The notes beneath the pieces were generated by a model. The model made no database searches. It was not told the DNA's origin and saw only the letters and a program-made list of their open reading frames with translations. Both the position numbers and the translations under genes were made by a program. From a virus: DNA of 48,969 nucleotides. Position 1 is the first letter of the stretch, and every line of letters begins with the position of its first letter. Of the stretch, positions 1,437 to 48,969 are shown in pieces. The DNA lies in the IMG/VR virus record IMGVR_UViG_3300027580_000002, positions 1-48,969 of that record. One strand, written 5' to 3'.

Positions 1437-1706
1437 ATGTTTAAAGACAAGGTTAGTATAAGGGTAAGTGATAATAATAATTATATGTCGGAGATAAGAA
1501 TTAATGGTAAAACCATTCCTTTTATTTACTCTTATAACTTACAACAAAGAGTAGGTGAAACTCCTGTATTAGATTTAGAATTAGATGCAAGTAATTTAGA
1601 TTATAATGGTAAAGCTGATATTAATATTGATAACTTAATATGTGGTAATAAGAAAATGGCTAAGGAAATATATGATACATTGAAAGAAAAATATGATTTT
1701 GAATAA
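1437..1706 (+). CDS. Hypothetical 89-aa protein
   Basis: A short protein whose alternating hydrophobic pattern (KVSIRVS, MSEIRING, PVLDLELD) suggests a small beta-sheet domain. A helical tail (about 72-88) ends KEKYDFE. An AAAGGGGAG site precedes the ATG. It lies in a run of small accessory genes with short gaps. No family was recognised. Confidence 0.6.
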   Translation: MFKDKVSIRVSDNNNYMSEIRINGKTIPFIYSYNLQQRVGETPVLDLELDASNLDYNGKADINIDNLICGNKKMAKEIYDTLKEKYDFE

Positions 1707-26500: not shown

Positions 26501-26528
26501 CGTAGTATCAATAAATGAAGAATTGTAA
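23505..26528 (+). CDS. Tail sheath protein with inserted beta repeats
   Basis: This 1007-aa protein is the contractile tail sheath. The N-terminal sheath domain has GTATDGPVLEP (about 40-50) and ITLMRISG. The C-terminal domain (about 720-1007) carries the conserved closing part, ending with IGRMIVRLYIVPVSEFRQIH, which links subunits. Between them, about 145-600, lie roughly five beta repeats of 60-70 residues that share a YE-x-N-x(3)-GI-x-V core and end in strands like VDYTYEE. This explains a length well above the usual 400-700. The repeats probably project outward on the tail surface. A GAGGAGG site precedes the ATG. Confidence 0.88.
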   Translation: MKEDIFNPTPDLPQNRVTLRDGVRNKGAENRTSDKVVLLGTATDGPVLEPITIENKDDAMNIFGRYFDENGMPNGATLTRFTSRLLDDDVNDPDNITLMRISGKEAEGEIELYPETKRDFVEEELYLGEVRGNDDYVIHISIPDGEHEVNGISFDDARINNVSIQGDGTPLPSGNYKVKNNVGDILLYEDATNPGANLYIEYIKEHIRRIEITEELHSYDEGSQGEEYKLDNENIIPDTETVYISPDPLDDPDGAWTKLDKEDYEFNFDTGILNLDQDIYSEPNVHVDYTYEEIETEEETMTHTINGGTQYLYLEHNADPRKDLEVTADGEPLNPRYDYDVNYDRLSVTVIELNEDSPRVTKGSKLRVNYYWQREETFIPAINVRSIYGGSLYNNVRLQARDKLTLKNDRIVKDASISGSEEMLVDINNDNVYYFPNEERGIIKESVELKLIHDSKADNNLTIENDFTVNESKGIVTVPDSIVEDINVNGYTLVTTAYSYTEVNERPFTTVKGDYDRDNLEYTGETLDKENREEAIFENRNIVPNSIDLVMVEDGTETSLAEGTDYEVNYSDGIIEVTSDSVYPLDSSKKLIANEYKYYNVSGKELTVIKPASKAKEDTSRRITFDLTEDYTNVASLIQAINNHRDNNVIRVSADDDTMRTSTMMIKTPDRKVDIDGDIIPEEFDMSGGKDEVDLSKEEIYDKLGGKYNDQGEKIELGAYDVLKDYNAAKYVVPLGVYANDDLDNDKNFAQQLANFCASTFYANNELFGYIGFKPLQEPSQVNVIDRVREAERFGTDFFLQNKDGEYLTDNNNNYVDAGKTISIVNLDLRVNDPHLVGTTIENAAPMIAGIHSTLTRVNSISNEAFGVGTLAYQLSPRQQQRLLRNKIMCGRNVYGEPRIVEGRTCAVKESGWELSQTIDIAYDTMEDLRAIYDKYSGDGNSLPKRNSLDAEIEQSLKENPGLVDFEHELIMTSKDRRIGRMIVRLYIVPVSEFRQIHTVVSINEEL

Positions 26529-29962: not shown

Positions 29963-32900
29963 TTGAATCCTTATCTAAAAAAACATGAAAATAGATTACT
30001 TAAAAGAGAAGAAGAAAGAGAAAGATATTTAAGAAGACAGGAAAATGCTACTAAAAGAAACTTAGCTAAAGCAGCTATGGTAGGTGTAGGTGCCACAGCA
30101 CTTGTACATACTGCCCACCCCAGAGGTATAGCTGGTGCTGTTAATGATGTAGCAGCTTCAGTTATATCTACTAAACGAGCAGGTAGTGATGTAAAGCAAT
30201 ATATAAGTAGAAGTACAACAACTACTGATATGTTTTCTAGAACTATGGAGTCTCCCAAACGCTTTGCTAATAAGTTTAGTGATGAATTGGGTAAGTTAAA
30301 TAGTATAGGTGGAGACAATATAGCTATAGAAAAAACACGTATATCTATAAAAGAAGGTTTAAATGAATTACGTTATGAACAGGCAAGACAGAAAAGATAC
30401 GATTACATAGAAGAACAATTAAAGAAAATGGAAAAAGAGGGTGGCGAAGTCACCCAAGAAAATATTCAGAAACTTAGAAATAGATATGGTTCTAGACTAG
30501 CTGATATGGCTGCAGAAATAGGTGGTAAATCATCTACCAGTCGTGGTGCTAGAGGTCCAGCTGCAGTACAATCAGAGTTATCTAGAGCAGGTTTCAATGA
30601 AGACCAACAGGATGCTATAAGAAAATTACTTAGGGATTCATACGAAAGTGTAGATGTTGATAGTGACGATTTTGCTAGAAAACAACAAAAGTTTAGAGAA
30701 CGTATTATAGAAAATATTATAGAAAGAAGACAGAAAGATTTAAATCCTAGTAGAGTAAGTGTAACACAGAAAGCTAAAGATGCTGTATCAAGTAAAATAA
30801 GAAGTGCTTTTGGTTACAGGCAAGCTACTGCACGTGACTTAATTAAAAAACATAATAGTACTGAAAGTGCTATTGAACTTAATGAAGAAACATTAAGATT
30901 CTTAAAAGAGATAGAACAATCTGGTGGAGATATGCGTAAATTCGTACCAGATGAAAACTTACTTATAGATGGTTCAGGTCGTATAGTTAATACACGTTCT
31001 ACCAGTAAAGTAAAAGATGCCTTTGATGAAGTTACATCCAGTGGTATAATAGGTAGAGTAATGCTCAAACAAAGACCAGAAGAAGACCAGCCTATGTATA
31101 TATTACGTTCTGGTAAACATCAACCATTTCTATCTGATATTGATGAAGTTGATGATAATTATAGATTACAGGAAACAATGGTTGGTATAGGCGACCAAGT
31201 ATTTAAATTGTCTGACCCTTCACAACCTGTAAAGCAAGGGTTACAGTTTACATCAGGTCGATATGGTACAATGAAAAGACTTGGTGTACAGATGTCTGGT
31301 ATAGAAACTAAAGAAGATGATTATGTACTAGGTAAGTTTGGTAAAACACTAGGTCTTGAAAAACAGAAACATCCTGGTATATATACTAGAGTTAAGTCAG
31401 CATTTACTAAAGGTAAAGATGAAGATTATCTAAGAAATAAAATAGCTAGACTATATGCAGGAGAGGAGTTCGACCGTGATTTAGCTTATGATGTATTTGA
31501 TACATTAAGAGTAGACTCACCTGCACCAGATAAAAATTTACTTAATGCTTGGACTAATCAATTAGATGATACTGTATTAAATGCTAATAAATTTGAAACA
31601 CAGGAAGACTTAGTAAATGCTTATGTAAGATTACAGAAAGACTTGGCACCTACAGGTAAATTGGATTACATAGATGATACTGATAAGTACTTTAAAGATA
31701 AAGCTTATAATATATTAAGTCGTTCAAGAGTACGTACGAGAAAAGGTTTCGCTCAGAGTAATGAGCTTGAAACTGGTGAAGATATACTACGTAAAAGAAT
31801 AGGTGGATTGTTAAGTGAACGTGAAGGTTATACAGAGTCTGCTCATACTCTAAGTAAATTAAGGAAACAGGGTGTCATAAGCCAAGCACAGAAACAAGCT
31901 GGTGATATGACAATAGGTACTCAAATATTTGAACAGGGTTTAGCACAAAATAGTATAAACTTTGATGATTCCACCAAGAGATTATTTAGGGGTACTGGTG
32001 ACGATGTAGATATATTAAGAGAAAGTCTCACCAACATGGCTAAAGAGACACGACCTAGATTTGGTTATGGTAATCTAGGTAGTGCAGATAGTATATATCG
32101 TGGCGACACTTTAGCAATGAATAAAATGACTGACCTAAGTCCTAGCAGTATATTAAATACATTTACTGCTGGTCGAGGTAATATGCATCAAGCCCACCGT
32201 GGTACTATGAAATTTTATGGTGTGGCTACTAGAATAAATAATCTAGCTAGAGAGATAGATGTACCTCCATTTAATAGAGTTTCAGTAGGATTACCCGATG
32301 AAGATATGGGGTCATCTGGTGCTTTTGCTAAAAACGTAATGCTTAAAAGAGTTCTTCCAGTTGCTGCTGGTTATACTGGTGTTAAGTGGGCTAATGACCA
32401 TCTTAAAGATATAACTGGTTATACTGGTGAACAACATTACGAAAGAGCAAAAGCTTCTACTAGATTTAAAGTAGCTGATATAAAAGAGAGTTTAGGTATA
32501 CAGTCAGCTATAGAATATATGGATAGAGTTACACCAGGTAGTGAAGGTGTAGAGTCAGCATTTTATAGTGTTCCATTTATAGGTTGGGGTGCAGATATAA
32601 CAGGTATTACCTCAACTAAAACACGTGAAGATTGGATAGATTATTATAGACACGGTACAGACCCAGTACGTAAAAGTAGATGGTGGCCACTAGGTTCTAC
32701 ACCTTGGATGGGGGAAGAAATAGCATACCATAAGCCAAACAGTTATAAAATGGCTATGGCAGAACCCGAATATACAAGTACAGTTTGGGGTGACAGAGAA
32801 CAATACTGGTCACACCACTGGATGCCTACTCCCTCTAATCCATTATCACCAATACGTAGATTTGTTACAGACCCATATTGGTGGGAAGAATATCATAAAG

Positions 32901-35900
32901 AACGTAGACCCTATCCACGTTCTGGTTCACTATTTGGTAGGAATACACCTTGGGGTCCAATACTCAATCAAACTATAGGTAAAGTATTAAAACCTACAGT
33001 TGATTATGGTGCTGGTGCTGATGAAAGTACTATAAGAAGATTAGAACAGGAAGAAGAATACGATAGTGCAGTTATACCAGTACATAAAGGTGGTACTGTA
33101 AAACTAAAAAGATATATACCTAAGTCTGGTATGAACACCAGAGATATAGAGAAAATATATAAAGAAGGAAAAATAGCTGTAAGTGCTGGAGGTGAAGTAC
33201 GTGAGACGGCTTCAGAAGGTATTGTAGCAGGTGGAAGAAACCAGGTAGGTATATACAAAGGTGGACAATCTAAATCGGCACAGCAGGCTACTATCGGCGA
33301 ATTAGAGATTTCTGATGCACAGCTAGCCAACATAAAGAAAAGTAGAAGACTTGCTGGTGATAAAGCAACAGTTATTGGTGGAGAAGGTTTACCAATACAT
33401 ATTAGTAGTGGACACGGTATAATAAGTAAACATCCAGTACAGGGTGAAGCTATTAAGACAGCAGGTACTTTAAATACAGATAGAGGACAAAAAGGTACAG
33501 TTAATTTAGGTGGACAGGAAATACGTATAGAAAATATCCAAAAACTAAATCAAGCACTAAGAAATAACTCTGGTGGTGTAAGTGATTTAGATACTAGGAT
33601 ATTAGAACAATCAGGATATTTTATAGACTATCGTCAACCTTGGAATACTGGTACGTTAGATAAGAAACCACAGGAACCAGATAGTATAAGTATGGTTCTT
33701 GATAGATTAAAAGAGACGATGTACAGGATGCCAGGTGCAACTGGTTTTATGACAAGAGCCTTAGTAGGTGACACTGGTTACGGTGAAGGTGAAGTTGTTC
33801 TTGAGTCAGCTGAAATGGCTTATGCCGAATCCAATAGATTTAATAGAAGTGGACTCGGTGGTAGAGGTATGAGATTTTCAGAGGTTGCAAGACGTTTTAT
33901 GCAACCATCTCCTGGACTAAGAGAAACAGTCAATAGAAGACCTAATACTATGCCTAGATGGTTACCCGATAGGTATACTAAAGGTGACCCTTATAGGAAA
34001 GTACAGGGTGGTGCAATAAGACTTCCCGGTGAAGCTTATGAAAGTTTAAATAAATTACACCCAGATGAATTCGGTAAATATGGTGCAGTAGATAGAGCAG
34101 CAATACTTGCTGATGTTGCACCTTGGTCTGACCAGTATAAGATGTGGTTAGATATAGCACGTTCTAAAGACTTAAGTCCAGAATCAGAAGCCTTTTTACA
34201 GAGAAGACTTAAGCGTTCTAGAAAACAGAGAGAGCCTTTCCATATAACTGAATACGAGTTTTTAGGTAAGAATACAAATAAAAAAGAAACTTCAGTTATA
34301 GAGTGGGTTGATGAAAATAGATTTAGAGTAGAGAATGGTGAAACAACTTATAGAATAGCAGGTGTATATGGTTCATTCAGTGATGAATCTAAATCTGGTA
34401 GTAGTATGTTAGAAGTACTAGAAGAAACTATGATGCCAGGTAGTGACATAAGAATAGCTACACCACAGAACCATCCTGGTTATAGTGATGATATGGCTAG
34501 TGTACCTGCCGTGGTTTATTCCGATGGTGTAAATGTAAGTAAGAAATTAAGAGAAGCTGGTGTTAAAGAACGTGAAGAAAGTAGTGTTATAGAAAACGAA
34601 ATAAATCTAGGTAAAGCTGGTAAAGCTATAGGTAGTGCTTGGGAGTTATTTTCTCATTCAGAAATACCTGTAGTAAGTAATAAAATAGTTAATGTTGATT
34701 CAGCATTAGAAAAATATAAAAAGAGTACAGTCTATGGTAAAGACTATCAATCATGGACTAAGCCAGTTGATGACTTAGCCAAACCTACTATGAGAATGAC
34801 AGCTTCTAAACATCCTTTAACAGCTACTATGACAGGTGCTTTTGCTGGTGCTGTAACAGGAGTGCTTACAGGTGGTAGTTACTTAACCAAACCATTTGCT
34901 GCAATAGGTGCAGTAGCAGGATTAGGATTTTCATTCTGGAGGATAAACAAAGAGCAGAAATCTGGTGATGCTTGGATACCAGATAATATAGAAAAGAGAA
35001 GAGAAATGCAGGAGTATTTTGATAAGTTAAAGTACGTCAAAAACTCTATGTTATATAATCGTTATAAGAAACTTGCTAAAGAAAAAGAAGGAACTAATAT
35101 AAGCAAGATAGTAGAAGAAATGGAAAGAACTAATTCAGAAATTAAAAATGAAAGAGAAAAACTACAGGATTATGTTAACGAATTAAGAAATGAAGATATA
35201 TCTAAAGAACAATCAGTAAAACAATTTATTAATGAACAGGGTAGAATAGAAAAAGAAGTACAGGATACAGAAGATTATATTGATAAACGTAAAGATAAAG
35301 TAGATAAAAGAATAAATCAGATAAAAAATAAAGAAGTATTTGCTAGTGTAGGACCTCTTGCAAAAAGAGCATTAATGTATAGAGACCGTATGGAATCCAC
35401 AATGGTAGCTATAGATAGTGACTCTACATTTACACAGATGATTAGAGCACTACCCGATGAAGAGAAAGATTACTTTAGATATTTTGCTAATATACATGAC
35501 CCTGAGAAACAGCAGAAAATTCTCAAGTACCTACCAGAAGAGGTTGGTGAAGTTTATAAACATGCTTGGGGATTAGAATATGATGAAAAAGATGTAGAAA
35601 AAATAAAACTAGAAGATTATTTTGACGATTATCACTTACCTAACGAAGACTGGGCAGGATGGGAAGAAGGAGTAGACCTAAGTATATCTGAAAGAAAACT
35701 TCTTGAAGAAGAAGGTTTTGACCCTAAAGACTTTGGATTTTGGGAACAGAATACTAAGGAAGAAGAATTAACTCCTTCACCTGTACATCCTGGTGACAGT
35801 TACAAATCACAGAACTTAAGTCAGGAAGAAGTACAGAAGTTACTAGAAGATATTATGAAAGAACACGATATAGAAGATATAGAAATAATGACAGAACCTA

Positions 35901-36037
35901 GTGAAGAACCAGGGATTAATATAGATATGAATATAGGTAAAGATTTAAGAGCAGATGCTGAGAGACAATTAGAAAATGTATTGATGGATACAGGAGACGT
36001 ATCACGACCAGCATCTGTATTAGGAGGTATTAACTAA
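29963..36037 (+). CDS. Giant tail protein (tape-measure position) with degenerate nuclease-like domain
   Basis: A 2024-aa protein with a TTG start at 29963, 6 bases after AGGGGTGG; the ATG at 29958 leads at once to a stop. The N-terminus is a basic helix (1-33) then a hydrophobic stretch (about 34-52). A Gly/Ala hydrophobic pair of segments lies near 1618-1660, followed by a coiled coil (about 1685-1780). A conserved-looking block near 1340-1395 (IRLPGEAYE, AILADVAPWS) was not assigned. Residues about 1438-1560 resemble a staphylococcal nuclease fold (TYRIAGV, MLEVLEETMMPGS, PAVVYSDGVNVSKKL) without its catalytic acids. It could be the tape measure or an ejected cargo protein. Its stop overlaps the next start (TAATG). 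Confidence 0.6.
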   Translation: MNPYLKKHENRLLKREEERERYLRRQENATKRNLAKAAMVGVGATALVHTAHPRGIAGAVNDVAASVISTKRAGSDVKQYISRSTTTTDMFSRTMESPKRFANKFSDELGKLNSIGGDNIAIEKTRISIKEGLNELRYEQARQKRYDYIEEQLKKMEKEGGEVTQENIQKLRNRYGSRLADMAAEIGGKSSTSRGARGPAAVQSELSRAGFNEDQQDAIRKLLRDSYESVDVDSDDFARKQQKFRERIIENIIERRQKDLNPSRVSVTQKAKDAVSSKIRSAFGYRQATARDLIKKHNSTESAIELNEETLRFLKEIEQSGGDMRKFVPDENLLIDGSGRIVNTRSTSKVKDAFDEVTSSGIIGRVMLKQRPEEDQPMYILRSGKHQPFLSDIDEVDDNYRLQETMVGIGDQVFKLSDPSQPVKQGLQFTSGRYGTMKRLGVQMSGIETKEDDYVLGKFGKTLGLEKQKHPGIYTRVKSAFTKGKDEDYLRNKIARLYAGEEFDRDLAYDVFDTLRVDSPAPDKNLLNAWTNQLDDTVLNANKFETQEDLVNAYVRLQKDLAPTGKLDYIDDTDKYFKDKAYNILSRSRVRTRKGFAQSNELETGEDILRKRIGGLLSEREGYTESAHTLSKLRKQGVISQAQKQAGDMTIGTQIFEQGLAQNSINFDDSTKRLFRGTGDDVDILRESLTNMAKETRPRFGYGNLGSADSIYRGDTLAMNKMTDLSPSSILNTFTAGRGNMHQAHRGTMKFYGVATRINNLAREIDVPPFNRVSVGLPDEDMGSSGAFAKNVMLKRVLPVAAGYTGVKWANDHLKDITGYTGEQHYERAKASTRFKVADIKESLGIQSAIEYMDRVTPGSEGVESAFYSVPFIGWGADITGITSTKTREDWIDYYRHGTDPVRKSRWWPLGSTPWMGEEIAYHKPNSYKMAMAEPEYTSTVWGDREQYWSHHWMPTPSNPLSPIRRFVTDPYWWEEYHKERRPYPRSGSLFGRNTPWGPILNQTIGKVLKPTVDYGAGADESTIRRLEQEEEYDSAVIPVHKGGTVKLKRYIPKSGMNTRDIEKIYKEGKIAVSAGGEVRETASEGIVAGGRNQVGIYKGGQSKSAQQATIGELEISDAQLANIKKSRRLAGDKATVIGGEGLPIHISSGHGIISKHPVQGEAIKTAGTLNTDRGQKGTVNLGGQEIRIENIQKLNQALRNNSGGVSDLDTRILEQSGYFIDYRQPWNTGTLDKKPQEPDSISMVLDRLKETMYRMPGATGFMTRALVGDTGYGEGEVVLESAEMAYAESNRFNRSGLGGRGMRFSEVARRFMQPSPGLRETVNRRPNTMPRWLPDRYTKGDPYRKVQGGAIRLPGEAYESLNKLHPDEFGKYGAVDRAAILADVAPWSDQYKMWLDIARSKDLSPESEAFLQRRLKRSRKQREPFHITEYEFLGKNTNKKETSVIEWVDENRFRVENGETTYRIAGVYGSFSDESKSGSSMLEVLEETMMPGSDIRIATPQNHPGYSDDMASVPAVVYSDGVNVSKKLREAGVKEREESSVIENEINLGKAGKAIGSAWELFSHSEIPVVSNKIVNVDSALEKYKKSTVYGKDYQSWTKPVDDLAKPTMRMTASKHPLTATMTGAFAGAVTGVLTGGSYLTKPFAAIGAVAGLGFSFWRINKEQKSGDAWIPDNIEKRREMQEYFDKLKYVKNSMLYNRYKKLAKEKEGTNISKIVEEMERTNSEIKNEREKLQDYVNELRNEDISKEQSVKQFINEQGRIEKEVQDTEDYIDKRKDKVDKRINQIKNKEVFASVGPLAKRALMYRDRMESTMVAIDSDSTFTQMIRALPDEEKDYFRYFANIHDPEKQQKILKYLPEEVGEVYKHAWGLEYDEKDVEKIKLEDYFDDYHLPNEDWAGWEEGVDLSISERKLLEEEGFDPKDFGFWEQNTKEEELTPSPVHPGDSYKSQNLSQEEVQKLLEDIMKEHDIEDIEIMTEPSEEPGINIDMNIGKDLRADAERQLENVLMDTGDVSRPASVLGGIN

Positions 36038-39000
36038 TGGCAGATTTAAATGGAATGAACAATTCAAAAAGAAATACATTAAGGGGGTTGGGGGTTAGCG
36101 TTATCAATCCTCCTGATAATCCTCACCCTTCTTATTCTTTAATCGCACCTTATGGTTCAGATGAAGCATATAATTTCAATGAAGATGCTATGGCTAGAAA
36201 TGCTAAAATATTCAATGAAATAAAAAACAATGCTTTCAATACTAGTAGTAGTAGTCCTATAATGAGAGATGCACATACAACGTTTTATAAAAATGCACCA
36301 CAACAGCATATAAGAAACTTTCGTAGATTTATAAATCAGGAAGATAGTAGAAGACTAGTAACATTTGATATCGAAACTGTTGGTGATTTTAATGGTGAAC
36401 AGATGGACACATTCTCACCTACAGAATTCTTTTTCAGCCAACGTCAATTAAATAAAGCAGATAATGCTTTTAATCTAAGTAGTGCAAATAATATGAAAGG
36501 ATTCTTAATATCACCTAGTGAAGAAACTGCTCAGAGTTTGCGTAAAGTTTTAAGAAAAGCTGAACAGGGAAGGTCTTTAACTAAAATGGAAAGTTTATCT
36601 TTAGGTACACTTGTTAGATATAGTGGTGATATAGAAACAGATAATAATGGTATAATTTCACATAACTTAGAAGCATTGAATGAATTTACTTCATCTACTA
36701 ATAGTGGCAGGCATCTTATAGATACAAGTAATCCACAATCTATCAGTGCTGCAAGAAGTGGTTTAAGAAATCTTATGAAAAAAGGTATGGACCCAGAACA
36801 GGCTGCACAAGAAATAGGTAATTACCTTAATGACAGTAAGATAAATGGGGCTTTCTTTTCTGGACACAATATAGGTAAATTTGATGTTAATGTTATGGAA
36901 AAGTTTCTTGGTCAGTATGATGTTAATACAGGTAATATACCAAATGCAAATAAACAGTTCGATACTTATGGTCTTATGAAAAGTATATTTCCAGAACCTA
37001 TGTCACTTACACGACTCGAGGGTGTAAGTACAGAAGATGTATTACAAGCAACTGAGAAAACTGGTGGTGGTTTCACTTTAGATGCTGTAGCTGAAACTAT
37101 ACTTAATGAAGAAGAATTAAAACAGTTTTATGCACACAAAGCTTCCAGTGATGTAAAAGCTAATGAACTAATAACACAGAAACTATTCTTTGAAAAAGAT
37201 GCTTTCAATTATATAACAGAAGATGTAATAAGAGAGCCAGGTTCTGGTACAGCTACAACACCAGCTTATTCATTTGATATAGGTAATATAAAACAAAACG
37301 AATTATTATTTTCTACAAGAGGTTATAGGGCTAGTCAAGAAGATAGTATGAGTTTTGTTGCTGAACAAACTATCGAAGGTGATATGAGATTAACTAATGA
37401 TAGATGGGTATTACCTTCACAAAAACCACTTATGTTTCAGAGAGCTTATGAAACTGAAAGTGGTGCTTTTGGTGTAGAGTTATATAATCCTTATGATAAA
37501 ACATATCATTACATAAATAAAGAGTCACGTGAAGAAGTAGAAAATTTTGTTAATAGGTATATGAAAACCACAGATGATATGAGTTATAATCAGATAAGAA
37601 GATATACTGAAAATGCTAGAGATGACGCTGCCAGAAGAACTATAGGTAAATTATTTCATACTCCATCTACAAGAGGTTTTCAGCATTTAGATAAATTTAT
37701 GCAGGCTGCTGAAGAAGAACAATATATAAGAGCAGGTAAAGGTAGTATGGATATTAATGAATTCTATAAAAGTAGACTACCAGAAATATTTAGTTTCGAG
37801 AATAAAAAAGGCGAAAAAGTTTATATGGATAGTTTCGTAGATAAGTATAAGCGTGTTAATGATAGACTTATGAGTGAACACGCTTTTGTACGTTCTATGA
37901 TGAATACTATTGAAGAAGAAATACCTACTGATACTGATAATAAGTGGGAAGCATTAAGACAAAGACATCAAGCTTTTGTTGAAGCTTATTCACAATACGA
38001 AAATGATTTCGGTGCTTTTAAAAGACTTAACGAAGTACCTGATTATAGACAGTATTCAGCTAAATTACCTGGACCTCAAGGTGGACAAAAATATGTACCT
38101 TTAAATAAACTTGATGATACACGTGGTAGATTAATGTCAGTATTTAATGATATAAGTCCAGCTAGGTCAGTATCATCTAGTGACCAAAGAGCATACGCTA
38201 GGTCATTAGTAAATACAATAGAAGGACAGGTTAACACTTTCGATGATGCTTTAAATAATCTAAGTAGAGCAGAGAGGTTAGCTTTTCCAGAAAAATTATC
38301 TAGTGGTGAAGCTGCTAGGAGAGCAGCACAATATAGTGATGATAGAATGAATCAAGCTGCACAAGAAACAATAAAATTTCTCAAGAAAACTAAAAATTAT
38401 TTACCAGAAGAAATTGATGCTGAAGAAAGAATAAAACAATTATATGATGACCCAGCTGTAGCAAGACAACAGATAGATGTTATATCTAAACAATTAGGAT
38501 TACAGACAGATGATGGTATAAGAAGTAGTGTACAAAATAAAGATAAAATACTTAGTGAATTAAATGATGTAAGAAGATATGTAGAAAGACAAAATTCTGC
38601 TTTCTATATGGCTGGTGCTATGTCTAGGTTTATGCATCAATATAAAGAAGATATACCTGGATTTAATAGACCGTTTAGAGAAGTAGAAAGTATAAGTTCT
38701 GCACCACAAAGACGTATTGATGATGCTTTAAATGTAGCTAATCAATATGCTAGAGAGGGTGTAGAAAAAGCTAAATTTACTAAAGAGTTAAGTAGAAAAG
38801 GTACTAAACTTGATAGTGCTTTTGATTTAGATAAAAATTTAAGAATATTAGATGAAAATATGAATAGAACTTATAGAGAATTAGGTATAGACAATACACC
38901 TACAACAATGAGAAGACAAACAAGAGATTTGATAGATAAATTCAGTAATTATATGGGTGATGTAAATATAGAAGGTCACCCTAATGGTAGATTAGGTATG

Positions 39001-42000
39001 AATGTTTTCTTTGAAGGTAGTATAGATAATAATCCTAAAGTAACTATGGCTTTATATGATGCAAATAGATATGATACACTAAAAGGTAAGCAGTTAGAAG
39101 ATTTAAGAAATATGGATAATGTTGCTACTATAGATGTACCACTTATAAGTACAGACCAGTATATAAAACATGGTAACCAAAAAGTTATATCACCAGCAGC
39201 TATAGTAGATAGAAGTGCTGACGATATATCTAGACGTATAGCAAGTGGTGAAGAAATAAAAGTACAAAGTGCATTTGATGTAATATCTAATAACTTGAAA
39301 AACCGTGCTAATAAGATTACTGCTGCTATTAAACAGGGTGATGTTCGTGAAGCTGAACGTACTGCTAATAGAGCAGTTAGAGGTTCAATAGAAGAATTTA
39401 CTGGTGCTAATAATCCATTCTCTGATATGGATAGGACAGCAAGTGGTGATATATCAGATGAATTTAAGAAGAGTCATATAATGTTTAAAGGTTTGTTCGA
39501 GGATGAAGACGGTAACTGGTATAATGTATTTAATCCAGATTCACAAGGTAGACTATCTAGAATGGGACCTAAAGATAAGATAAGATTATTCCAAGACCAA
39601 AATGGTTTTAGAAGTGACTTTAATGATTTTTTACGCAATACTCTAGGTAAAGATGTATCAGTTAATATAGCTGGTACTAGAGGTAAAAATATAGGTAAAG
39701 GTGTACTTGCTTTAAGAGATGTTAGAGATTACACCACTATGGGTTATTATAATAATCCAGGTCGTGAAAGAATGTTACAGGCTTTTGGTATAAGAAAAAT
39801 AACTGATAGAAGTAAAAAAGCTATGTCAGAAATGAGTGGTGTAACATTTAACCCATTAATGAGTTCACAGACTATGGATGAAGCTTTTGGTGTAGGTGAA
39901 ACTTTAGAAGAGACTATGTATAATGCACCAGGTTTTCAGTCAAGAGTTGCATTTGTTAATGAAGACACTATGTTAGGTGAGTTAAAAAGAGCTCTTGATG
40001 AAGGTTATGGTAACGAAGCAGATAGAAAATTATTTGAGAAATTAGAAACTACACCTACTATATTTGAAGACCAAGCTTTAGGTTCACGTGAGTTACTTAA
40101 TCAATACGAAGCACAGACAATTAAAGAAAAAACTATTAGTGGATATAAAAACCCTGACTTAGTTGACAAGATAAAAAATGAAATAGATAATAATGGTAAA
40201 TATAAATTAGGTTATATGGAAGATATGGTAGAAACTTCTGGTGAAACTTTACAGTCTGAATTTAGGTCACAACATTCTATTATAGATTACAGAAAAGAAG
40301 GCGACGATTTAGTATTAACCTTACAGGAAGAGTTTTCAGACAGACAGGGTTTTACTTCCGTGATGTTAGGTCAGGAAAAACAAACTGTTACTAGAAGATT
40401 ATCTGATGATTTAATACAAGCTGCTTTTGGTGATGGTGTTAAGTTTGTTGCTGCTACTGGTCAGAAAAGTCACGGTGCTTATGGTGACGTACTCTCTGGT
40501 ACAGTTAAAGATGCTATAAGACAAATAAATGAACTTGATATAAAAAGAGCAGAAAAAAGTAGACGTTTAAGACAAGTTGAAAGATTAACTAATGAAATAT
40601 TAGGATTAAATGTACAGGTAAAAGAAATGCGAAGTGGAGACGAGATATTAGGTAGATTAGTATATCCAGATACATCTGGTAAAGATGTAATAGATATGGG
40701 GCAGAAAGATTTATTAGATGAATTAAATAAAGTAGAAGGTATAAGTCTAGACCCTAATATCTTAACAGTTGATACTAGATTTTTAGAAAATGAAGAAAAT
40801 ATGAACTATCTCTCTATGTTTGGTGGTCGTGGTAAGAAAGGTATGAGAGCTACACCACAGTTAGCACAACGAATGAGAGATATGAAGTATAATGAATATG
40901 CTAAATATTTACAAGATGAGATAATTAGAAATGTAGATGAGGGTAAACAACAACTTGTTATAGATGAAACTATTATGCAGGAACATTTATATAATGCTTC
41001 ACAGCAAGCCAATCCCAACTATATGCCAAAAGGTAAAACTGCTATGAGTTACTCCAACGTAATAGAAAACTTCGATAGAGTACCACAGGGTACTTATGTA
41101 GCTGAAGGTAATAGAACCACATTTAAACAAGGTACATATTATATGGAAGACTTAAAAGGTACTATATTAGACCCCGAAAGAGACGGTATGTATATAGAAT
41201 TACCAGAACAGGTAGATGTACAGGTAGACAAGCGTACTGGTAAAGAAAAATATAGTAGTATAAAGAAACTGTTTATGACTACACCAGATGTTAATGCTAC
41301 TGAAGAAATAGGTCGTGGTGATTTATATACAGCTGGTCCTTTAGGTAAACATCAAAGAAATATTATAGAGACTGTTAAAGATTATAATATGGCTAAAACT
41401 CAAAGTGAAGCTTGGGAAGAAATGGCTCAAAGCAAATATGGTACTACTGATAATGCTAAAAGTTTACGTAGAATAAAAAATAAACTACAACGTGAAGTAC
41501 AACAATATTATGATAGAGCTTTGAAAGATGTAACATCTTCTAGAAGTCAAGGTGGTCGTGCTGCTGAAAGTGTAGTAGGTACTGAAGCAACAGGTAGTGG
41601 TTATTTCATACTACAGGGTAGAACACCTATAGAAGATGCTATGCCAAATTCATCTTATGCTGATGAATTAAGTAAGGTTAAGGCTAAACATGCAAACAAC
41701 TTAGCAGCAAATGATGTTCTTATAAGTACAGATGATGCTAAACGTATGGTAGGATATGATTTTGATAAAGGTGAATTTATAAATGAAGATGCTAAAAAAA
41801 CATTTAAACAAATGACAGAAGGTGAGGGTGTTTACGGTACTAGTGTTAGATATCCTACTACTCACCCAGGTTCAGCTGTACCAGTAAAGGTAAAAGCATC
41901 TGATGATGTAGGTAGTGGAGTAATGCAACAATCATCTATTATGACTACACAGATGCAGAAAGGTGATTACGATACTGACCACGGTGCATTGTTCTTGATA

Positions 42001-43359
42001 CCAGGACAAGGAACTGAAGCTGCTAAAAATCGCAATATAGACTTCGACGAACTAGAGAGACAGTATCAAAAAGTACAGGATGACTTATATAATCAGAAGT
42101 TTGGTAGCGACTTAACACCTGCACAAAAATTTAGAAATGATATACAGGAAGAAGTTAATACATCACGTGGATATAATATAATAGGAGATTCTGATTCTGA
42201 TATCGTAAAACGTATGGAAGGTTCAGCAGGTGTAGCTAAAAACTTTGCCGACAATTTAGCTGAAGCAAAGATGCGTAATGCAGCCTATACTGGTATGATA
42301 ACTAACCTATCAGATAAAGCAAGAAGAATAGGTATGAATAATCTAGGTGAAGCTGGATATGATAAATACGGTAGAGATTTCTTAAGTGCTATAGGTGATA
42401 TAACAACCCAACCTATTGATGCTAAACACTTTATGGATGTATCAAGTTCTGGTACTACAAAGACTGTAAGTAAAGCAGACCCTATAGAAGTATATGATGC
42501 TATGCGTAATGCAGATTGGGATAAACTTGAAACCTTATTACATCAGGGTGATGATGCTGTACTATCAGACAAACAATGGACAGCATTTGAAGCAGCACTT
42601 GGTAATACTTCAAGAAACGAAATGCAGGATTTGGCTACTGACATACACAAGTCAACACGTATGCTTGATAGAGGGTTAGAACCTGCTATAAGTGCTATAA
42701 AGAAAAACTCCGATAATGTCTCTATGCAGAGAGAAATGATGGATAAGTTTGTATTCGGTCAAGTAAAAGACGACCTAGTAAATCAAGGAAGTCAGTATAG
42801 TTACGGTCAACAAGCTGGAAGGTTTATGGGTGAAACTGCTGATAGAGCTAAAAATTTAGATAGAATACAGAAAGAATTAGGTAAAGTTACAGCAGAAGCA
42901 GCAACCTCTTCTGGATTCGGTTTAGGATTAGGTGCTGTAGCAGGTGCATTTGCTGGTGGTGTAGCTTTATCAGAACTAAGTAGTACACAAGACCCACTTC
43001 CTATGGATTATCTAGACCAACCAGCTATGCAACCAGCACCAGATACAGGAGAAAGAGAAAGTTATCAACATATACAGGGTATGTCTGGATTTAAACAAGC
43101 ATTAAGTTCAGCTGGTGGTAGTTCTAATATACAGGGACCTACTGATATACCAGATATGGTACGACAGGAAAATATGAATATGGTAGTAAGAGGAAAGACT
43201 ACTATCGACAAAGACCCAGATGAATTAGCAAGAGTAGTTAATGAAGAATTTAAAAATGAACTACAATTTCCTATAAATATAAATGTAAGAACAGAAGATG
43301 ATAGAAAAGGATTATCACAAGACTGGGCTGAAAAAAGAGTATTAGATATGATTAATTAG
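36037..43359 (+). CDS. Giant exonuclease-RNA polymerase-like virion protein
   Basis: A 2440-aa protein with two enzymatic parts. N-terminal: a DEDDh 3'-5' exonuclease with FDIET (Asp111, Glu113), GHNIGKFD (Asn278, Asp283) and H-x4-D (His367, Asp372). C-terminal half: motifs of the two double-psi beta-barrels of multisubunit-type RNA polymerases in order. These are FED-x4-S (1343-1350, like beta NFEDSILVSE), K-x7-K (Lys1469/Lys1477, like beta KMAGRHGNK), RYPTTH (1938-1943, like beta-prime RAPTLH) and D-Y-D-T-D (1977-1981, like DFDGD, the metal site). IDAKH near 2127-2131 recalls a later motif of single-chain polymerases. A Gly/Ala hydrophobic helix is at about 2293-2311. It starts inside the previous stop, so is co-translated with a tail gene. 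The likely role is a virion polymerase that transcribes early genes on entry; activity is inferred. Confidence 0.75.
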   Translation: MADLNGMNNSKRNTLRGLGVSVINPPDNPHPSYSLIAPYGSDEAYNFNEDAMARNAKIFNEIKNNAFNTSSSSPIMRDAHTTFYKNAPQQHIRNFRRFINQEDSRRLVTFDIETVGDFNGEQMDTFSPTEFFFSQRQLNKADNAFNLSSANNMKGFLISPSEETAQSLRKVLRKAEQGRSLTKMESLSLGTLVRYSGDIETDNNGIISHNLEALNEFTSSTNSGRHLIDTSNPQSISAARSGLRNLMKKGMDPEQAAQEIGNYLNDSKINGAFFSGHNIGKFDVNVMEKFLGQYDVNTGNIPNANKQFDTYGLMKSIFPEPMSLTRLEGVSTEDVLQATEKTGGGFTLDAVAETILNEEELKQFYAHKASSDVKANELITQKLFFEKDAFNYITEDVIREPGSGTATTPAYSFDIGNIKQNELLFSTRGYRASQEDSMSFVAEQTIEGDMRLTNDRWVLPSQKPLMFQRAYETESGAFGVELYNPYDKTYHYINKESREEVENFVNRYMKTTDDMSYNQIRRYTENARDDAARRTIGKLFHTPSTRGFQHLDKFMQAAEEEQYIRAGKGSMDINEFYKSRLPEIFSFENKKGEKVYMDSFVDKYKRVNDRLMSEHAFVRSMMNTIEEEIPTDTDNKWEALRQRHQAFVEAYSQYENDFGAFKRLNEVPDYRQYSAKLPGPQGGQKYVPLNKLDDTRGRLMSVFNDISPARSVSSSDQRAYARSLVNTIEGQVNTFDDALNNLSRAERLAFPEKLSSGEAARRAAQYSDDRMNQAAQETIKFLKKTKNYLPEEIDAEERIKQLYDDPAVARQQIDVISKQLGLQTDDGIRSSVQNKDKILSELNDVRRYVERQNSAFYMAGAMSRFMHQYKEDIPGFNRPFREVESISSAPQRRIDDALNVANQYAREGVEKAKFTKELSRKGTKLDSAFDLDKNLRILDENMNRTYRELGIDNTPTTMRRQTRDLIDKFSNYMGDVNIEGHPNGRLGMNVFFEGSIDNNPKVTMALYDANRYDTLKGKQLEDLRNMDNVATIDVPLISTDQYIKHGNQKVISPAAIVDRSADDISRRIASGEEIKVQSAFDVISNNLKNRANKITAAIKQGDVREAERTANRAVRGSIEEFTGANNPFSDMDRTASGDISDEFKKSHIMFKGLFEDEDGNWYNVFNPDSQGRLSRMGPKDKIRLFQDQNGFRSDFNDFLRNTLGKDVSVNIAGTRGKNIGKGVLALRDVRDYTTMGYYNNPGRERMLQAFGIRKITDRSKKAMSEMSGVTFNPLMSSQTMDEAFGVGETLEETMYNAPGFQSRVAFVNEDTMLGELKRALDEGYGNEADRKLFEKLETTPTIFEDQALGSRELLNQYEAQTIKEKTISGYKNPDLVDKIKNEIDNNGKYKLGYMEDMVETSGETLQSEFRSQHSIIDYRKEGDDLVLTLQEEFSDRQGFTSVMLGQEKQTVTRRLSDDLIQAAFGDGVKFVAATGQKSHGAYGDVLSGTVKDAIRQINELDIKRAEKSRRLRQVERLTNEILGLNVQVKEMRSGDEILGRLVYPDTSGKDVIDMGQKDLLDELNKVEGISLDPNILTVDTRFLENEENMNYLSMFGGRGKKGMRATPQLAQRMRDMKYNEYAKYLQDEIIRNVDEGKQQLVIDETIMQEHLYNASQQANPNYMPKGKTAMSYSNVIENFDRVPQGTYVAEGNRTTFKQGTYYMEDLKGTILDPERDGMYIELPEQVDVQVDKRTGKEKYSSIKKLFMTTPDVNATEEIGRGDLYTAGPLGKHQRNIIETVKDYNMAKTQSEAWEEMAQSKYGTTDNAKSLRRIKNKLQREVQQYYDRALKDVTSSRSQGGRAAESVVGTEATGSGYFILQGRTPIEDAMPNSSYADELSKVKAKHANNLAANDVLISTDDAKRMVGYDFDKGEFINEDAKKTFKQMTEGEGVYGTSVRYPTTHPGSAVPVKVKASDDVGSGVMQQSSIMTTQMQKGDYDTDHGALFLIPGQGTEAAKNRNIDFDELERQYQKVQDDLYNQKFGSDLTPAQKFRNDIQEEVNTSRGYNIIGDSDSDIVKRMEGSAGVAKNFADNLAEAKMRNAAYTGMITNLSDKARRIGMNNLGEAGYDKYGRDFLSAIGDITTQPIDAKHFMDVSSSGTTKTVSKADPIEVYDAMRNADWDKLETLLHQGDDAVLSDKQWTAFEAALGNTSRNEMQDLATDIHKSTRMLDRGLEPAISAIKKNSDNVSMQREMMDKFVFGQVKDDLVNQGSQYSYGQQAGRFMGETADRAKNLDRIQKELGKVTAEAATSSGFGLGLGAVAGAFAGGVALSELSSTQDPLPMDYLDQPAMQPAPDTGERESYQHIQGMSGFKQALSSAGGSSNIQGPTDIPDMVRQENMNMVVRGKTTIDKDPDELARVVNEEFKNELQFPININVRTEDDRKGLSQDWAEKRVLDMIN

Positions 43360-43374: not shown

Positions 43375-46300
43375 ATGCCTGATTTATTTTATATAGACGG
43401 ACAACCAAAAGCAAGAGAAGGTAGATTAGTAAAAGGTATAGCTAATCATATAATAGACGGAGGTACATTACATGTAACATTTAATGAAAATTCTATGCTT
43501 GGACCAGATATTAAGAGGAACGGTTTAGAAAATACCGTTCCTCTGAAACTTACTGGTGTAGATGCACCATCTTTAGGAGATAAGATAAATGAATCTATTT
43601 ATGAAAATGATGAAGTAGATTTATTTGAATCAGAACGTGGTCGTTATATAAATTCTGAACCAAATGCACATCGTGCTGCATCTCTTTTAGTAGATTTAGT
43701 AGAAGGTAAAAATGTACTTATAGATTTACGTACAGAAAACGGTAGCTCTACTGGTCGTGCTATAACTGGGAGAAAAGGTTTACCCGAAGGTATAGTTTAT
43801 TACAAAGATGGAAATAAATGGGTTAATTTGAACAGAACAATAATTACTAATGGTTATGCTGATTTAGCAAGTCTTGACCACTCTAATTTAGAACAACCTA
43901 AAAAGAATGAATACTTACTTGATTCAACCTTAGGTATATTTAAAGATAATCGTGAAGAGATAGAGAATAACCTTAAAGAAGAACGTGACGATTTTCTCGG
44001 TGGTTTTGATGTAGATAAAAACGCTAGAATAGGTGATACTATTTTACCTATACCACCAGAGAATATAAGTATGATTAGTAAAAATCAGCAAGACCCTATA
44101 TCAGTAATGAGAAATAGTAATCAGATGATGCCTTCATCTGGTAGTAATGCTAAACAAATACAATTAGATTTTTACTTCGACCAAAAACAACAGATTAATG
44201 GTTATAGAAAAGAGTCAGACTGGCAGGTAAAGAAAAATAATAATGGTGAAGAAAAGAAGATACATCCTACATATTACATAAATGGTTTACGTTCTCTTAT
44301 AGCACAGTTTAAGCTTACACCATTCCTACCAGTAGAAAATACTACACTTAATTTTGAGTTTGATGTAGAAGCTATTACATTACAGAACTTAGTTGTAACA
44401 AATCTCGAAGAATTTCCTAATGTAATACAGGTATCAGTTATAGCAAAAGAGTTTAACTATAAACCTTATATGGATAGTGAACGACCTTTTAGTTATTTCT
44501 TTGACTGGAAATTATTTAGATTCTATTATCAACGTATGCTTAAAGGTACTGATTTAGATTTTGATGGAGATAAATTACCTCTCTATGAATCAAACAATGA
44601 TAACTTAAGTATAGATATAATGGATATGAGTTCACTACAGGAACTTGAAGAAGCTGTACATACTATGAGGAAATCACCTAATGATACAGCTATGAATTAT
44701 GCTGAAGGTGATACAGCTTACGAAAGATTAGTACACGATTATTTGCTTATTAGAACTGCCAAACAGCAACGTACTAAAGCTAATGAACTTATGGATAAAT
44801 ATAATATAACTAGAGATAATTTTAATGATAAGGGTAAACGTAGTGATGTAAAATCGTTTATACAGGAATATGTACAGTACTGTGCTGATGAAAAGAATAA
44901 TCCTATATATAAAGATTTCGACGGATATGATTATGCCTTTGAACCATTAGTAGGTTTTATGGAAAACTTCTTAGGTGAAGCTGATAGTTACAAAACTAGG
45001 TTTGTTTTCTATAGACCATTTACAGGTATTAATACTTTTAGGTCACCTTTCTCTGAATTTAAATATGACCCACATTTTATGATAAGATTAAGGTCTCCAA
45101 ACTCTGTTAATACTATAAATGTATTGGTAGAAAATACTACAAACTATTATAATCCTACACCATCTGGTGATTATTATTCTTTACAGGATAGGTATATAGA
45201 AGATTTACCACCAACATTAAAGAATTATTCTACTAGAATGAAACAACCTATAACATCAAGTGTCTTTACAAGTTTTAAAGATTCTTATGGAGAATTTAAT
45301 TCAAATAAAACTAGAACAGCTTTTATACCAAATTATTTCTTTGAGTTAGTAGAAGACCAAATAGCTTTAAAAGGTAAAACTAAAAAACAACAGAGAGATA
45401 AAGCTATAAAATTATCTAAAGATGAAGAAATGGATTATAACTGGCAGACACTAGATTTAAGTGAGTCTTTTTTACAGGATGTTACAGTATCATTACAGAA
45501 TAGAGTAACAAAACAGGATATTAGTATGGAGACTAAAGCTACACATCAATATCTTGGTGCTAAGATGGCTAATATAAATATACAACTTGTTACTCAAAAT
45601 CCTTTTGATGTTAATAAACTTACATCACTGGTCGACTATGCTAAAGTATTACAGAAAAAATTCAATACTGTTATAGATAGACCTATATTAAAACTTGATA
45701 ATAACATAGTAAACCTATTTGGCTTTTATGGTGTACAAATAAATGAACTTGAAGTACAAACAGTAAAAGATTTACCTAATACATATGATGTTAAGATATC
45801 TTTCTTGGGTGTATTCAAGCCACCAGAGAATTTCCAAAGTATATCAAAAATATATTCAGAACAGTTAGATGACCCTGATGCTGGACTTATAGAAGATACA
45901 GAATCTGGTCGTTGGTTTAGTTTCCCTAATGTAGATGTAAGTGGAAGAACACAGGATATTGATGATTACCTAAAACTTAAAGAACAGTTAAAGTATATAA
46001 ACTTGTATCCCGATTTATATCTACCTAAGTATTCAGAGTTACCTGTAGAATCAGATTTATATGAGGAGAATAGTGATGTATTTGTCGACCCTGATTTCTA
46101 TACATTAAGTAAGAGTAATTTATTTGTTAAGAAAACACTTAATGTATTAGAAGGATTTGAATCTGAAGTTAATACTCAGGATTCTAGTGGTAATTATATA
46201 AAAGCATTAGTGGATGAACTAGGTAATGTTGATTTATCTAATATGGAAAACCTTACTGGTAATGATGAAGAACTTGAAATAGATGGTTTGGATAATGATA

Positions 46301-48969
46301 AGAATACTAAAGAAAAAGAAACTTACAAAAATAACAATTCAGTTAAAAAGTTATATAGAATAATGAGTAATAAAATAAACTCAAACGAATTCGAGGTAAG
46401 AGATAATACAGACTATAGTATAAGAGATACTATAAATGTATTTCAAAGACACAATCATACTTATTATAATGGATACGATATATCAAATACTATCGTAGAT
46501 AATAGAGGACAGGATACAGTAGCAGTATTTATAGCAGCTAACTGGTCACAAAATCAAGAAGTAAATGATATAGAAGGACCAAGAGTATTATTTGATAAAG
46601 ATGGTAATCCTTTACCCAGCAGTGATTTAAATAATGCTGAATTTCTAGGTTTACCTCTGACAAGAAAAGATGTAGTAACAGATGATATGTCTGAATTCTT
46701 AAGAAACAGGGGTATAAGTGGCAACACTAGTAATAAAATATATGACTATATGGCTAAAGACCCTAGATTCAATGGTCTTGTACTAGCAAGTGCTGCTCAA
46801 AAATACTATTCATATTACAGTGAATACTTAAGCAATTTATCTACTTCAGATATAGCAAAAGAAGTTACTGCTGAAACTGAAATGGATACTATGTTTACAA
46901 GTGGTTGGTCTGGTACTAATGCAGAATATACTACTCCTAAAGTTGTAAAAGAAATGATTATGAGTTCAGTACACGAAAATAATCTTGATACTATATTTAA
47001 GATAATAAGTTTATTAAATGCTAAAGGTTATAGTATACAGGAAATAGCAGATGGTAATGAAACTACTACAACTATATTAAATAATATGTCTACTTTATAT
47101 AAAGATTTAGTTAATTCAAATTCTGGTACTATATTACCTATGGATAATTATACAGATGCTGATGAAGATTCATTAAGGTTTCTCGTACAGAAAACAGCAC
47201 AGGCTATAATGAATAAAGATGATAAAGAAGTATATAATATGGTAAAAACTAATAGTGAAAAAGATACTAAAACACAGGGTAGTACTAAAGAACGTATTAT
47301 AAACGCTTATAAAGATATGTTAGAGTATGACCAACGTGGCAGGTTATTAAGAGCATTTCCTTCATATTATTTAATGCTTATTGACGAAGGTCATGAAATG
47401 TTTATATGGAGTCTACAGGATGTATTTTATCACTATGATGGTGTTAAAAGTATAGATGTTGTAAAGGATAAGGAAAATATAGCTGATGCTGCTTATATAG
47501 AATTGTTTAATACTAAAATGAATTTAAGTGACCCTACTGGTGGGTTTGCACAAAAAAATAGTGACCTAGAATTAGTAGATATAATAAAGGATATTATACC
47601 TTTTGAAAGTTATGAAATATCAAGGAACAAGAGAGAACAGGAACCAGTCTCTGTACAGCTCAATACAGGTGCTAGGATACATTTACGTATGGGTTATGGT
47701 TCAACACCAGCACAACTACCAATAGTCTTTAATGGTACTATTACAGAGATACAGTTAGGACAGGTAGTAAAGTTTGTTGCACAGGGTGATGGAGTAGAAT
47801 TATCAGACCCTCTTTTAGCTGGACCTAAAGAAATATCTGAAGGTGGTTTATACGAGGGTAATTTACTTACTAAAAGAGCTAATCCACAGGAAATATTATT
47901 ATCACCACTTACAGATTTAGATGGACTATGGTCTAATATGTGGAGAGGTATTGGTAGGTCAATAGCAGAAGTAGGTTTTGATTCTAATGTAGCACCATTC
48001 AACGAAGAGTCAGAATATGGACCTAGTTATATAGGTGCTAATTACAAACCCGACTTTTGGGAAGGACCTATATCAATGAGACAGCCTATGAAAGATGAAC
48101 AGTTTATGGATTTTATAAGACCTAGTGCTGTTACTTATGAAAGAGCTCAGAATATATATAGTCCTAATTCAAAGAACGGTGGTAATGAAGAGATTAAATT
48201 CTCTATGTTTTTGTACGGTAAGACAGTTTATGATGTTTTACAGACCTGTGCTATGACAGTACCTAACTGGATAGGTGATGTTCACCCATTCGGTATAAGA
48301 AGGAGTACAATATTTTATGGTCATCCATCATTTGAGTTAGCTTATGATTATAAACGTTTAAGAGAAGATGATACTAGAAATAGTATATATGATAATATGA
48401 AACTTAAGGAATTAGAAAGTGGTAAATCTGTAATAGAAGAAGTAAAAACTTACAGACAGTATAAAGTATATGGTAGTTATTCAGATATAATAGCCAATAA
48501 TATAAGATTATCACAGGAAAATATTGTTACAGCAGTTAAACCTATAATGTATGCTAGAGATAAAGAAGAAATAAAAGAACTAGACCCCGTTTTTCTAGAT
48601 ACTGATATTTACACTGAATTCCAAACACAGATAACTGTAGATACTGCTATTAAAACACCTAACCTTGGTACAAGAGTTTTAGACTGGACAAAGTATAATA
48701 GAAATAGAGAAACACAGTCAGCTATAAACTATTCTATATCTACTATGCAACAACATATTGATAGTATGTATAGTGGTGAATTATTAATAATGGGTGACCC
48801 TACAGTAAAACCTTACGACCAAGCACATATATATGATTTGGAAAGAAAAATGTCTGGTCCTATAGAAGTCAATCGTGTAACACTAAGTATGGATTCAGAA
48901 ATAGGTTTTGTAACTTCTATAAATCCTAATCCAGTATCAACAGCTAATAGAGGATTTAAAAAAGATATA
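43375..48969 (+). CDS. Giant baseplate hub-type protein with N-terminal SNase-like domain (partial)
   Basis: The open frame of 1865 codons runs off the window end. It starts with ATG after AGGAGG. Residues about 10-180 form a staphylococcal-nuclease-like domain: IIDGGTLHVTF, PLKLTGVDAP, HRAASLLVDLV, STGRAI and WVNLN...NGYA. Two catalytic positions are changed (DGD becomes DGG, and the Glu after DAP is Ser), so it is probably inactive. A structural block starting IGDTILPIPPENI follows near 218. A hub-like segment (ARIHLRMGYGSTP ... FNGTITEI) lies near 1430-1465, as in baseplate hub proteins of contractile tails, and a matching beta segment lies near the end. Likely the central baseplate hub. 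Confidence 0.7.
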   Translation, partial: MPDLFYIDGQPKAREGRLVKGIANHIIDGGTLHVTFNENSMLGPDIKRNGLENTVPLKLTGVDAPSLGDKINESIYENDEVDLFESERGRYINSEPNAHRAASLLVDLVEGKNVLIDLRTENGSSTGRAITGRKGLPEGIVYYKDGNKWVNLNRTIITNGYADLASLDHSNLEQPKKNEYLLDSTLGIFKDNREEIENNLKEERDDFLGGFDVDKNARIGDTILPIPPENISMISKNQQDPISVMRNSNQMMPSSGSNAKQIQLDFYFDQKQQINGYRKESDWQVKKNNNGEEKKIHPTYYINGLRSLIAQFKLTPFLPVENTTLNFEFDVEAITLQNLVVTNLEEFPNVIQVSVIAKEFNYKPYMDSERPFSYFFDWKLFRFYYQRMLKGTDLDFDGDKLPLYESNNDNLSIDIMDMSSLQELEEAVHTMRKSPNDTAMNYAEGDTAYERLVHDYLLIRTAKQQRTKANELMDKYNITRDNFNDKGKRSDVKSFIQEYVQYCADEKNNPIYKDFDGYDYAFEPLVGFMENFLGEADSYKTRFVFYRPFTGINTFRSPFSEFKYDPHFMIRLRSPNSVNTINVLVENTTNYYNPTPSGDYYSLQDRYIEDLPPTLKNYSTRMKQPITSSVFTSFKDSYGEFNSNKTRTAFIPNYFFELVEDQIALKGKTKKQQRDKAIKLSKDEEMDYNWQTLDLSESFLQDVTVSLQNRVTKQDISMETKATHQYLGAKMANINIQLVTQNPFDVNKLTSLVDYAKVLQKKFNTVIDRPILKLDNNIVNLFGFYGVQINELEVQTVKDLPNTYDVKISFLGVFKPPENFQSISKIYSEQLDDPDAGLIEDTESGRWFSFPNVDVSGRTQDIDDYLKLKEQLKYINLYPDLYLPKYSELPVESDLYEENSDVFVDPDFYTLSKSNLFVKKTLNVLEGFESEVNTQDSSGNYIKALVDELGNVDLSNMENLTGNDEELEIDGLDNDKNTKEKETYKNNNSVKKLYRIMSNKINSNEFEVRDNTDYSIRDTINVFQRHNHTYYNGYDISNTIVDNRGQDTVAVFIAANWSQNQEVNDIEGPRVLFDKDGNPLPSSDLNNAEFLGLPLTRKDVVTDDMSEFLRNRGISGNTSNKIYDYMAKDPRFNGLVLASAAQKYYSYYSEYLSNLSTSDIAKEVTAETEMDTMFTSGWSGTNAEYTTPKVVKEMIMSSVHENNLDTIFKIISLLNAKGYSIQEIADGNETTTTILNNMSTLYKDLVNSNSGTILPMDNYTDADEDSLRFLVQKTAQAIMNKDDKEVYNMVKTNSEKDTKTQGSTKERIINAYKDMLEYDQRGRLLRAFPSYYLMLIDEGHEMFIWSLQDVFYHYDGVKSIDVVKDKENIADAAYIELFNTKMNLSDPTGGFAQKNSDLELVDIIKDIIPFESYEISRNKREQEPVSVQLNTGARIHLRMGYGSTPAQLPIVFNGTITEIQLGQVVKFVAQGDGVELSDPLLAGPKEISEGGLYEGNLLTKRANPQEILLSPLTDLDGLWSNMWRGIGRSIAEVGFDSNVAPFNEESEYGPSYIGANYKPDFWEGPISMRQPMKDEQFMDFIRPSAVTYERAQNIYSPNSKNGGNEEIKFSMFLYGKTVYDVLQTCAMTVPNWIGDVHPFGIRRSTIFYGHPSFELAYDYKRLREDDTRNSIYDNMKLKELESGKSVIEEVKTYRQYKVYGSYSDIIANNIRLSQENIVTAVKPIMYARDKEEIKELDPVFLDTDIYTEFQTQITVDTAIKTPNLGTRVLDWTKYNRNRETQSAINYSISTMQQHIDSMYSGELLIMGDPTVKPYDQAHIYDLERKMSGPIEVNRVTLSMDSEIGFVTSINPNPVSTANRGFKKDI

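Follow-up and report, generated by a model that had tools for sequence, protein, structure and literature searches.

A giant contractile-tail protein that probably joins a single-chain two-barrel RNA polymerase to a DnaQ-type exonuclease

Does a structural-looking protein of a contractile-tailed virus also carry an enzyme that makes RNA? The question is raised by the window, the whole stretch of 48,969 nucleotides of viral DNA analyzed here, in which a preliminary description had read four RNA polymerase motifs in one 2440-residue protein. All four were found where it had placed them: FEDQALGS at residues 1343-1350, KFVAATGQK at 1469-1477, RYPTTH, matched just once, at 1938-1943, and DYDTD at 1977-1981, with the described spacing of 39 residues from R1938 to D1977. 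The gene is a single open frame with a 2024-aa tail protein encoded before it and the baseplate hub after it, and it does belong to a contractile-tail module, as had been claimed and as is borne out by the sheath match listed below. Proteins of this type have so far been labeled only as structural, hypothetical, or tape-measure proteins. The tail genes to which we refer are as follows.

23505..26528, plus strand: tail sheath (PHROG 16991, E 5e-89)
29963..36037, plus strand: 2024-aa protein upstream of the giant ORF, by position only a possible true tape measure
36037..43359, plus strand: giant tail-module protein, 2440 aa (ORF; family comparison)
43375..48969, plus strand: baseplate hub/lysin homologue that runs off the contig, the anchor for finding relatives (PHROG 20474, E 8e-149)

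A Pfam search of the window hub (43375-48969) gave no match; its N-terminus may contain a staphylococcal-nuclease-type domain, and a homologue on a Cytobacillus plasmid is annotated "nuclease." A second DFDGD string (DLDFDGD) occurs at nt 44557, within the hub ORF, and lacks an R-x-P at a suitable distance. Elsewhere the window holds a DNA repair exonuclease gene (PHROG 284, E 2e-37) at 8465-10033, between the terminase and portal genes, and a tRNA-Trp gene (anticodon cca) at 2343-2418.

Searched alone, the 2440-aa protein had no Pfam match, and phmmer against the PDB returned only unrelated helical matches. Its only relative in the phage database (tblastn) was gp034 of Bacillus phage KLEB27-3, a 2434-aa protein annotated, as a label only, as structural; the two aligned pairwise with an E value of 2e-22 across the N-terminal 670 residues, and gp034 carries the motif in its canonical form (RYPTINQ ... 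LKADYDGDF). Neither protein, used singly as the query, found relatives among the IMG/VR viral contigs, and an alignment built from the motif alone was too variable for scanning. The family was reached instead via the neighboring hub gene (43375-48969), which is better conserved than the giant protein: an alignment of the hubs of the window, KLEB27-3, Moorella phage MTATph1, and Acinetobacter phage ME3 led to 45 related viral loci. These loci were selected on the hub alone, and in 32 of the 45 the pattern R-x-P-x(28-48)-DxDxD is present in the gene immediately preceding it; several of the remaining loci lack an upstream gene because the contig ends. As controls, 2.3% of shuffled copies of the family proteins and a single one of 73 further long ORFs from these loci showed it. 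Looser forms of the motif (GDFDGD, DTDGD) were seen at loci L045 and L034. At locus L025 the protein upstream of the hub (L025:3243-9908) had a detectable exonuclease (E 5e-8) and lacked the R-x-P...DxDxD pattern, as if, judging from sequence, the polymerase were cargo that is dispensable for tail building. At L014:1405-8681 the polymerase gene is broken into two frames, of 2026 and 419 aa, in comparison to L015 and L019. When GTDB contigs were scanned with the hub, only two loci were recovered. One relative (L062, NZ_CP065512.1) lies on a 240-kb Cytobacillus plasmid with an identical tail gene order. That plasmid is perhaps a phage-plasmid, and another related tail module was noted on a 220-kb Bacillus velezensis plasmid. 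The family appears to span many large phages with contractile tails, among them the cultured KLEB27-3 and ME3, and in it the giant protein keeps a constant position beside the hub in the tail gene order; overall identity among its members is 11-26%.

Further features were placed within the giant protein by alignment of the family and by modeling.

36322..37230, plus strand: predicted DnaQ-type DEDDh 3'-5' exonuclease domain, residues 96-398 (AlphaFold; Foldseek; VIA)
36367..36375, plus strand: exonuclease D111-x-E113, invariant in 17 aligned relatives
36883..36885, plus strand: exonuclease D283, invariant in 17 aligned relatives
37135..37152, plus strand: exonuclease H367-x4-D372, invariant in 17 aligned relatives
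39766..40809, plus strand: predicted beta-like half (DPBB-B side), residues 1244-1591 (VIA-align of the model)
40063..40086, plus strand: FEDQALGS, residues 1343-1350, candidate equivalent of beta NFED (column [YF][ED][GQD])
40354..40380, plus strand: K-x7-[K/R] column pair 1440/1448, T...K in the window (family alignment)
41848..41979, plus strand: beta'-like core R1938-x-P1940 ... D1977-x-D1979-x-D1981, with metal-binding loop DYDTD (motif; profile; structure match)
42409..42429, plus strand: Q-P-I-D-A-K-H, residues 2125-2131, after the beta' barrel (family alignment)
42913..42969, plus strand: hydrophobic, Gly/Ala-rich stretch at residues 2293-2311; no other 19-mer of the protein is more hydrophobic
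43168..43356, plus strand: C-terminal segment conserved with KLEB27-3 gp034 (E 4e-4)

The R, the P, and the three D residues of the beta'-like core were invariant across a 24-member alignment, in part by construction, since rows were kept for carrying R-x-P...DxDxD; the KLEB27-3 and ME3 homologues, which were found without using the pattern, carry it too. The fourth loop residue, before the last D, was G in 16 of the 24 members and T in the window only, so the earlier view that DYDTD marks a divergent lineage holds for the window member and not for its family. The FED position is supported and reads [YF]-[ED]-[GQD] in most relatives. The assignment of K1469 and K1477 as the catalytic lysines had to be abandoned: the first is K in 1 and the second in 2 of the 24 rows, and the conserved pair lies at columns 1440/1448. 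Column 1440 is K in 14 of the 24 members (T in the window), column 1448 is K or R in 22 (K in the window), and a K-H motif follows at columns 1478/1479. K-x7-K is the lysine spacing in cellular beta. On the basis of this spacing and of motif order, the 1440/1448 pair is the best candidate for the beta catalytic lysines. Beyond the beta' barrel, the [IV]-[DS]-x-K-[HK] stretch (residues 2127-2131) resembles the Q-T-R-E-I-D-A-A-K-T-G of YonO/QDE-1-type enzymes that relatives encode.

Structure prediction with a fold search, and a search with RNA polymerase profiles, had been proposed as checks in the preliminary description. From the 24-member alignment and without templates, AlphaFold gave a model of window residues 1150-2280 that was of modest quality overall (mean pLDDT 56.6, pTM 0.39), with core blocks at pLDDT 70-89. 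Foldseek against the PDB gave 290 matches at E <= 0.001, of which the best 50 of 290 were all RNA polymerases; the top match among those listed was the beta' subunit (chain d) of the AR9 non-virion polymerase (E 7.6e-6). With VIA-align, model residues 95-442 (window 1244-1591) were superimposed on RNAP beta/RPB2 (Z 12-12.9, 210-265 residues, rmsd about 4). Matches to beta' and to beta within one model indicate a beta-like half followed by a beta'-like half on one chain. QDE-1, phi14:2 gp66, and P23-45 gp96 were not among the matches listed in the PDB structure searches. In a viral structure library, a "minor tail protein" of a siphovirus-labeled contig came first (E 3e-20) and ME3 gp36 third, followed by many RNA polymerases. 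The profile search gave weaker results and succeeded for the family, not for the window protein alone: RNA_pol_Rpb1_2, the Pfam family with the largest number of matching members, was hit by 4 of 24 (best E 0.0012), and the family profile matched beta' chains of the PDB weakly, in register at the motif (phiKZ PHIKZ055, E 0.018; bacterial beta', E 0.11). In-register alignment was also obtained between the family profile and the YonO/QDE-1-type polymerases that the relatives encode (E 0.0069, compared to 0.79 for a hub control). The recurrence of the motif, the in-register beta' profile matches, and the structure matches to beta' and beta uphold the single-chain two-barrel core first proposed from the motifs, and residues from about 1244 to 2150 very likely form such a core.

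The N-terminal part of the protein was modeled with greater confidence, residues 85-400 reaching a pLDDT of 86 and a pTM of 0.86. The best Foldseek match of this model was E. coli exonuclease I (E 5e-5; VIA Z 16.4), and it also matched TREX and Pol III epsilon (Z 14-16). The window domain has the fold and all catalytic residues in common with these DnaQ-type DEDDh exonucleases and differs from them in sharing a tail-protein chain with an RNA polymerase core. The predicted domain looks like an intact DEDDh exonuclease, with the full catalytic set on a DnaQ fold, and is presumably active. The domain is not universal in the family: the exonuclease profile did not hit ME3 (L048) or L051 significantly (E 1.9 and 1.2, respectively). 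In MTATph1 (L003) it is found in a 1309-aa protein that ends right before a transposase gene, and the stretch examined there (L003:17487-23755) contained no polymerase motif. We know of no earlier pairing, on one chain, of a polymerase of the two-barrel kind with a DnaQ-type exonuclease.

Near the other end of the protein, the most hydrophobic 19-mer is Gly/Ala-rich and lies 117-155 residues before the C-terminus in nearly all members; it may insert in the membrane or pack in the tail tube. The predicted layout of the 2440-aa protein would then be exonuclease, uncharacterized stretch, two-barrel RNA polymerase, hydrophobic segment, and C-terminal tail. Taken as a whole, the protein is likely a single-chain two-barrel virion RNA polymerase in a contractile tail, fused to a DnaQ-type 3'-5' exonuclease, and we think it likely that the polymerase carried in the virion is active. 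A more specific version is put forward only tentatively: a virion-borne nucleic acid polymerase of the two-barrel kind would have a covalently attached exonuclease that proofreads or end-trims, correcting or trimming the product of the polymerase itself, and in some members of the lineage DNA ends may be the substrate of this enzyme pair.

Three other explanations were weighed against a virion polymerase. The protein could be a tape measure protein with vestigial or structural enzyme-like domains, comparable to its positional equivalent in phage 0305phi8-36. Its position between tail genes and the hub favors this, and so does the conserved C-terminal stretch, given that 0305phi8-36 orf146, whose designation as a tape measure came chiefly from the length of the tail, could be aligned to the BtI1 counterpart over its last 60 residues only (PMC2147016). 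A structural rod, however, would not need the catalytic residues of both enzymes, which are invariant at 11-26% overall identity, and the separate 2024-aa protein upstream could itself be the tape measure. We consider a purely structural role unlikely, and a tape measure is in any case not exclusive with a polymerase, as P23-45 illustrates (PMC10770324). Alternatively, the two-barrel core could belong to a DNA polymerase or primase with a proofreading exonuclease, acting on incoming genome ends. The exonuclease I-type (DnaQ) domain on the same chain would suit such an enzyme, but the structure matches listed are RNA polymerases, for replication KLEB27-3 has a DNA polymerase III alpha and primases of its own, and to our knowledge all phage virion two-barrel enzymes characterized so far are RNA polymerases. 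Archaeal PolD does show that a two-barrel core can make DNA (PMC4996933), and the idea draws on analogy with it; we rate a DNA-synthesizing enzyme as quite improbable here. Motif coincidence, with no relationship to RNA polymerase, is hardly credible: the loose motif does arise at a chance rate of 2.3% per protein and the window protein alone has no Pfam match or meaningful PDB sequence match, but the family-wide recurrence and the structure matches to both beta and beta' argue against it.

Comparison to known systems places the preferred reading, a virion RNA polymerase, close to phage P23-45, a precedent that, like the N-terminal DEDDh exonuclease and the conserved C-terminal hydrophobic segment, was absent from the preliminary description. 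The closest experimental precedent is P23-45 gp96, a virion RNA polymerase fused to the tail tape: in this phage, which has an extremely long non-contractile tail, the polymerase makes up the N-terminal portion of a tape measure 5,002 residues long that also has a metallopeptidase (PMC10770324). Both proteins have a single-chain two-barrel core inside a giant tail protein and an R-x-P ... DxDxD motif of similar spacing, and the family profile aligned with gp96 by hhalign at E 0.033, in register across 53 columns at the motif only. P23-45 also has a pair of virion and non-virion polymerases, and several relatives of the window likewise encode a second polymerase. The tail here is contractile, the polymerase occupies the C-terminal half, and an exonuclease lies at the N-terminus, whereas no DEDDh exonuclease is described for gp96. 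The phi14:2 gp66 protein of a crAss-like phage is another single-chain two-barrel virion polymerase (PMC10770324, PMC7886860); it is encoded in a transcription gene block, unlike the window gene, which adjoins a contractile-tail hub, and no sequence match between it and the window family was found. YonO, QDE-1, and 0305phi8-36 gp99 (PF05183) share two barrels on one chain and a related motif after the barrel; the window tail protein had no PF05183 match in the Pfam search, and relatives carry a PF05183-type enzyme separately. In 0305phi8-36, likewise, gp99 is a known YonO-like enzyme separate from orf146 (PMC7824862), the protein in the same position as ours; the structural genes of ME3 were annotated by similarity to this phage. 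The multisubunit virion polymerases of phiKZ and AR9/PBS1 are also two-barrel enzymes but are split over several proteins rather than carried on one chain. The best sequence-profile and structure matches among those listed were the non-virion beta' subunits of phiKZ and AR9.

Other transcription genes were sought in 23 related records. Of these, 8 encode a PF05183-type polymerase as a separate protein, and 4 others, none of them among those 8, gave a sigma-70 region 2 match. Cellular-type beta (PF00562) was absent from all 23 records, which may be fragments, so that absences are soft; beta' (PF04997) was absent from KLEB27-3 and MTATph1. A second polymerase or a sigma-70 match in relatives is expected if another enzyme takes over after the virion polymerase, and the second polymerase fits, by analogy, a division of labor. 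A search for promoter motifs ahead of the genes presumed early in KLEB27-3 turned up nothing phage-specific, only enriched Shine-Dalgarno words (ribosome-binding sites); a host-type promoter, TTTACA-17-TATAAT, lies upstream of the right-end gene (L083, OM634661.1 216403-216579). We envisage that the protein would be assembled inside the tail and ejected together with the DNA, the hydrophobic segment and the C-terminus holding it at the tail or the membrane. The polymerase half would then transcribe the first genes, or might help pull the DNA in, and the exonuclease would most likely trim the 3' ends of nascent RNA or of incoming DNA. Later, control could pass to the polymerase of the host, to a sigma factor of the phage, or to a second polymerase that the phage encodes.

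Outside its group 1, a 2021 survey of jumbo phages names only the YonO-like enzymes of 0305phi8-36 and c-st; the group that includes KLEB27-3 and ME3 thus appears to carry a virion polymerase missing from that survey (PMC7824862), and the supplementary survey of the P23-45 paper may list it. The finding would extend tail-carried polymerases from a long-tailed Thermus siphovirus (P23-45) to contractile tails, with an exonuclease added on the chain. Whether 0305phi8-36 orf146 was rightly called a tape measure becomes testable, and the cultured phages in the family make direct tests possible. Large phages of this widespread group probably deliver a transcription machine of their own into the cell along with their DNA.
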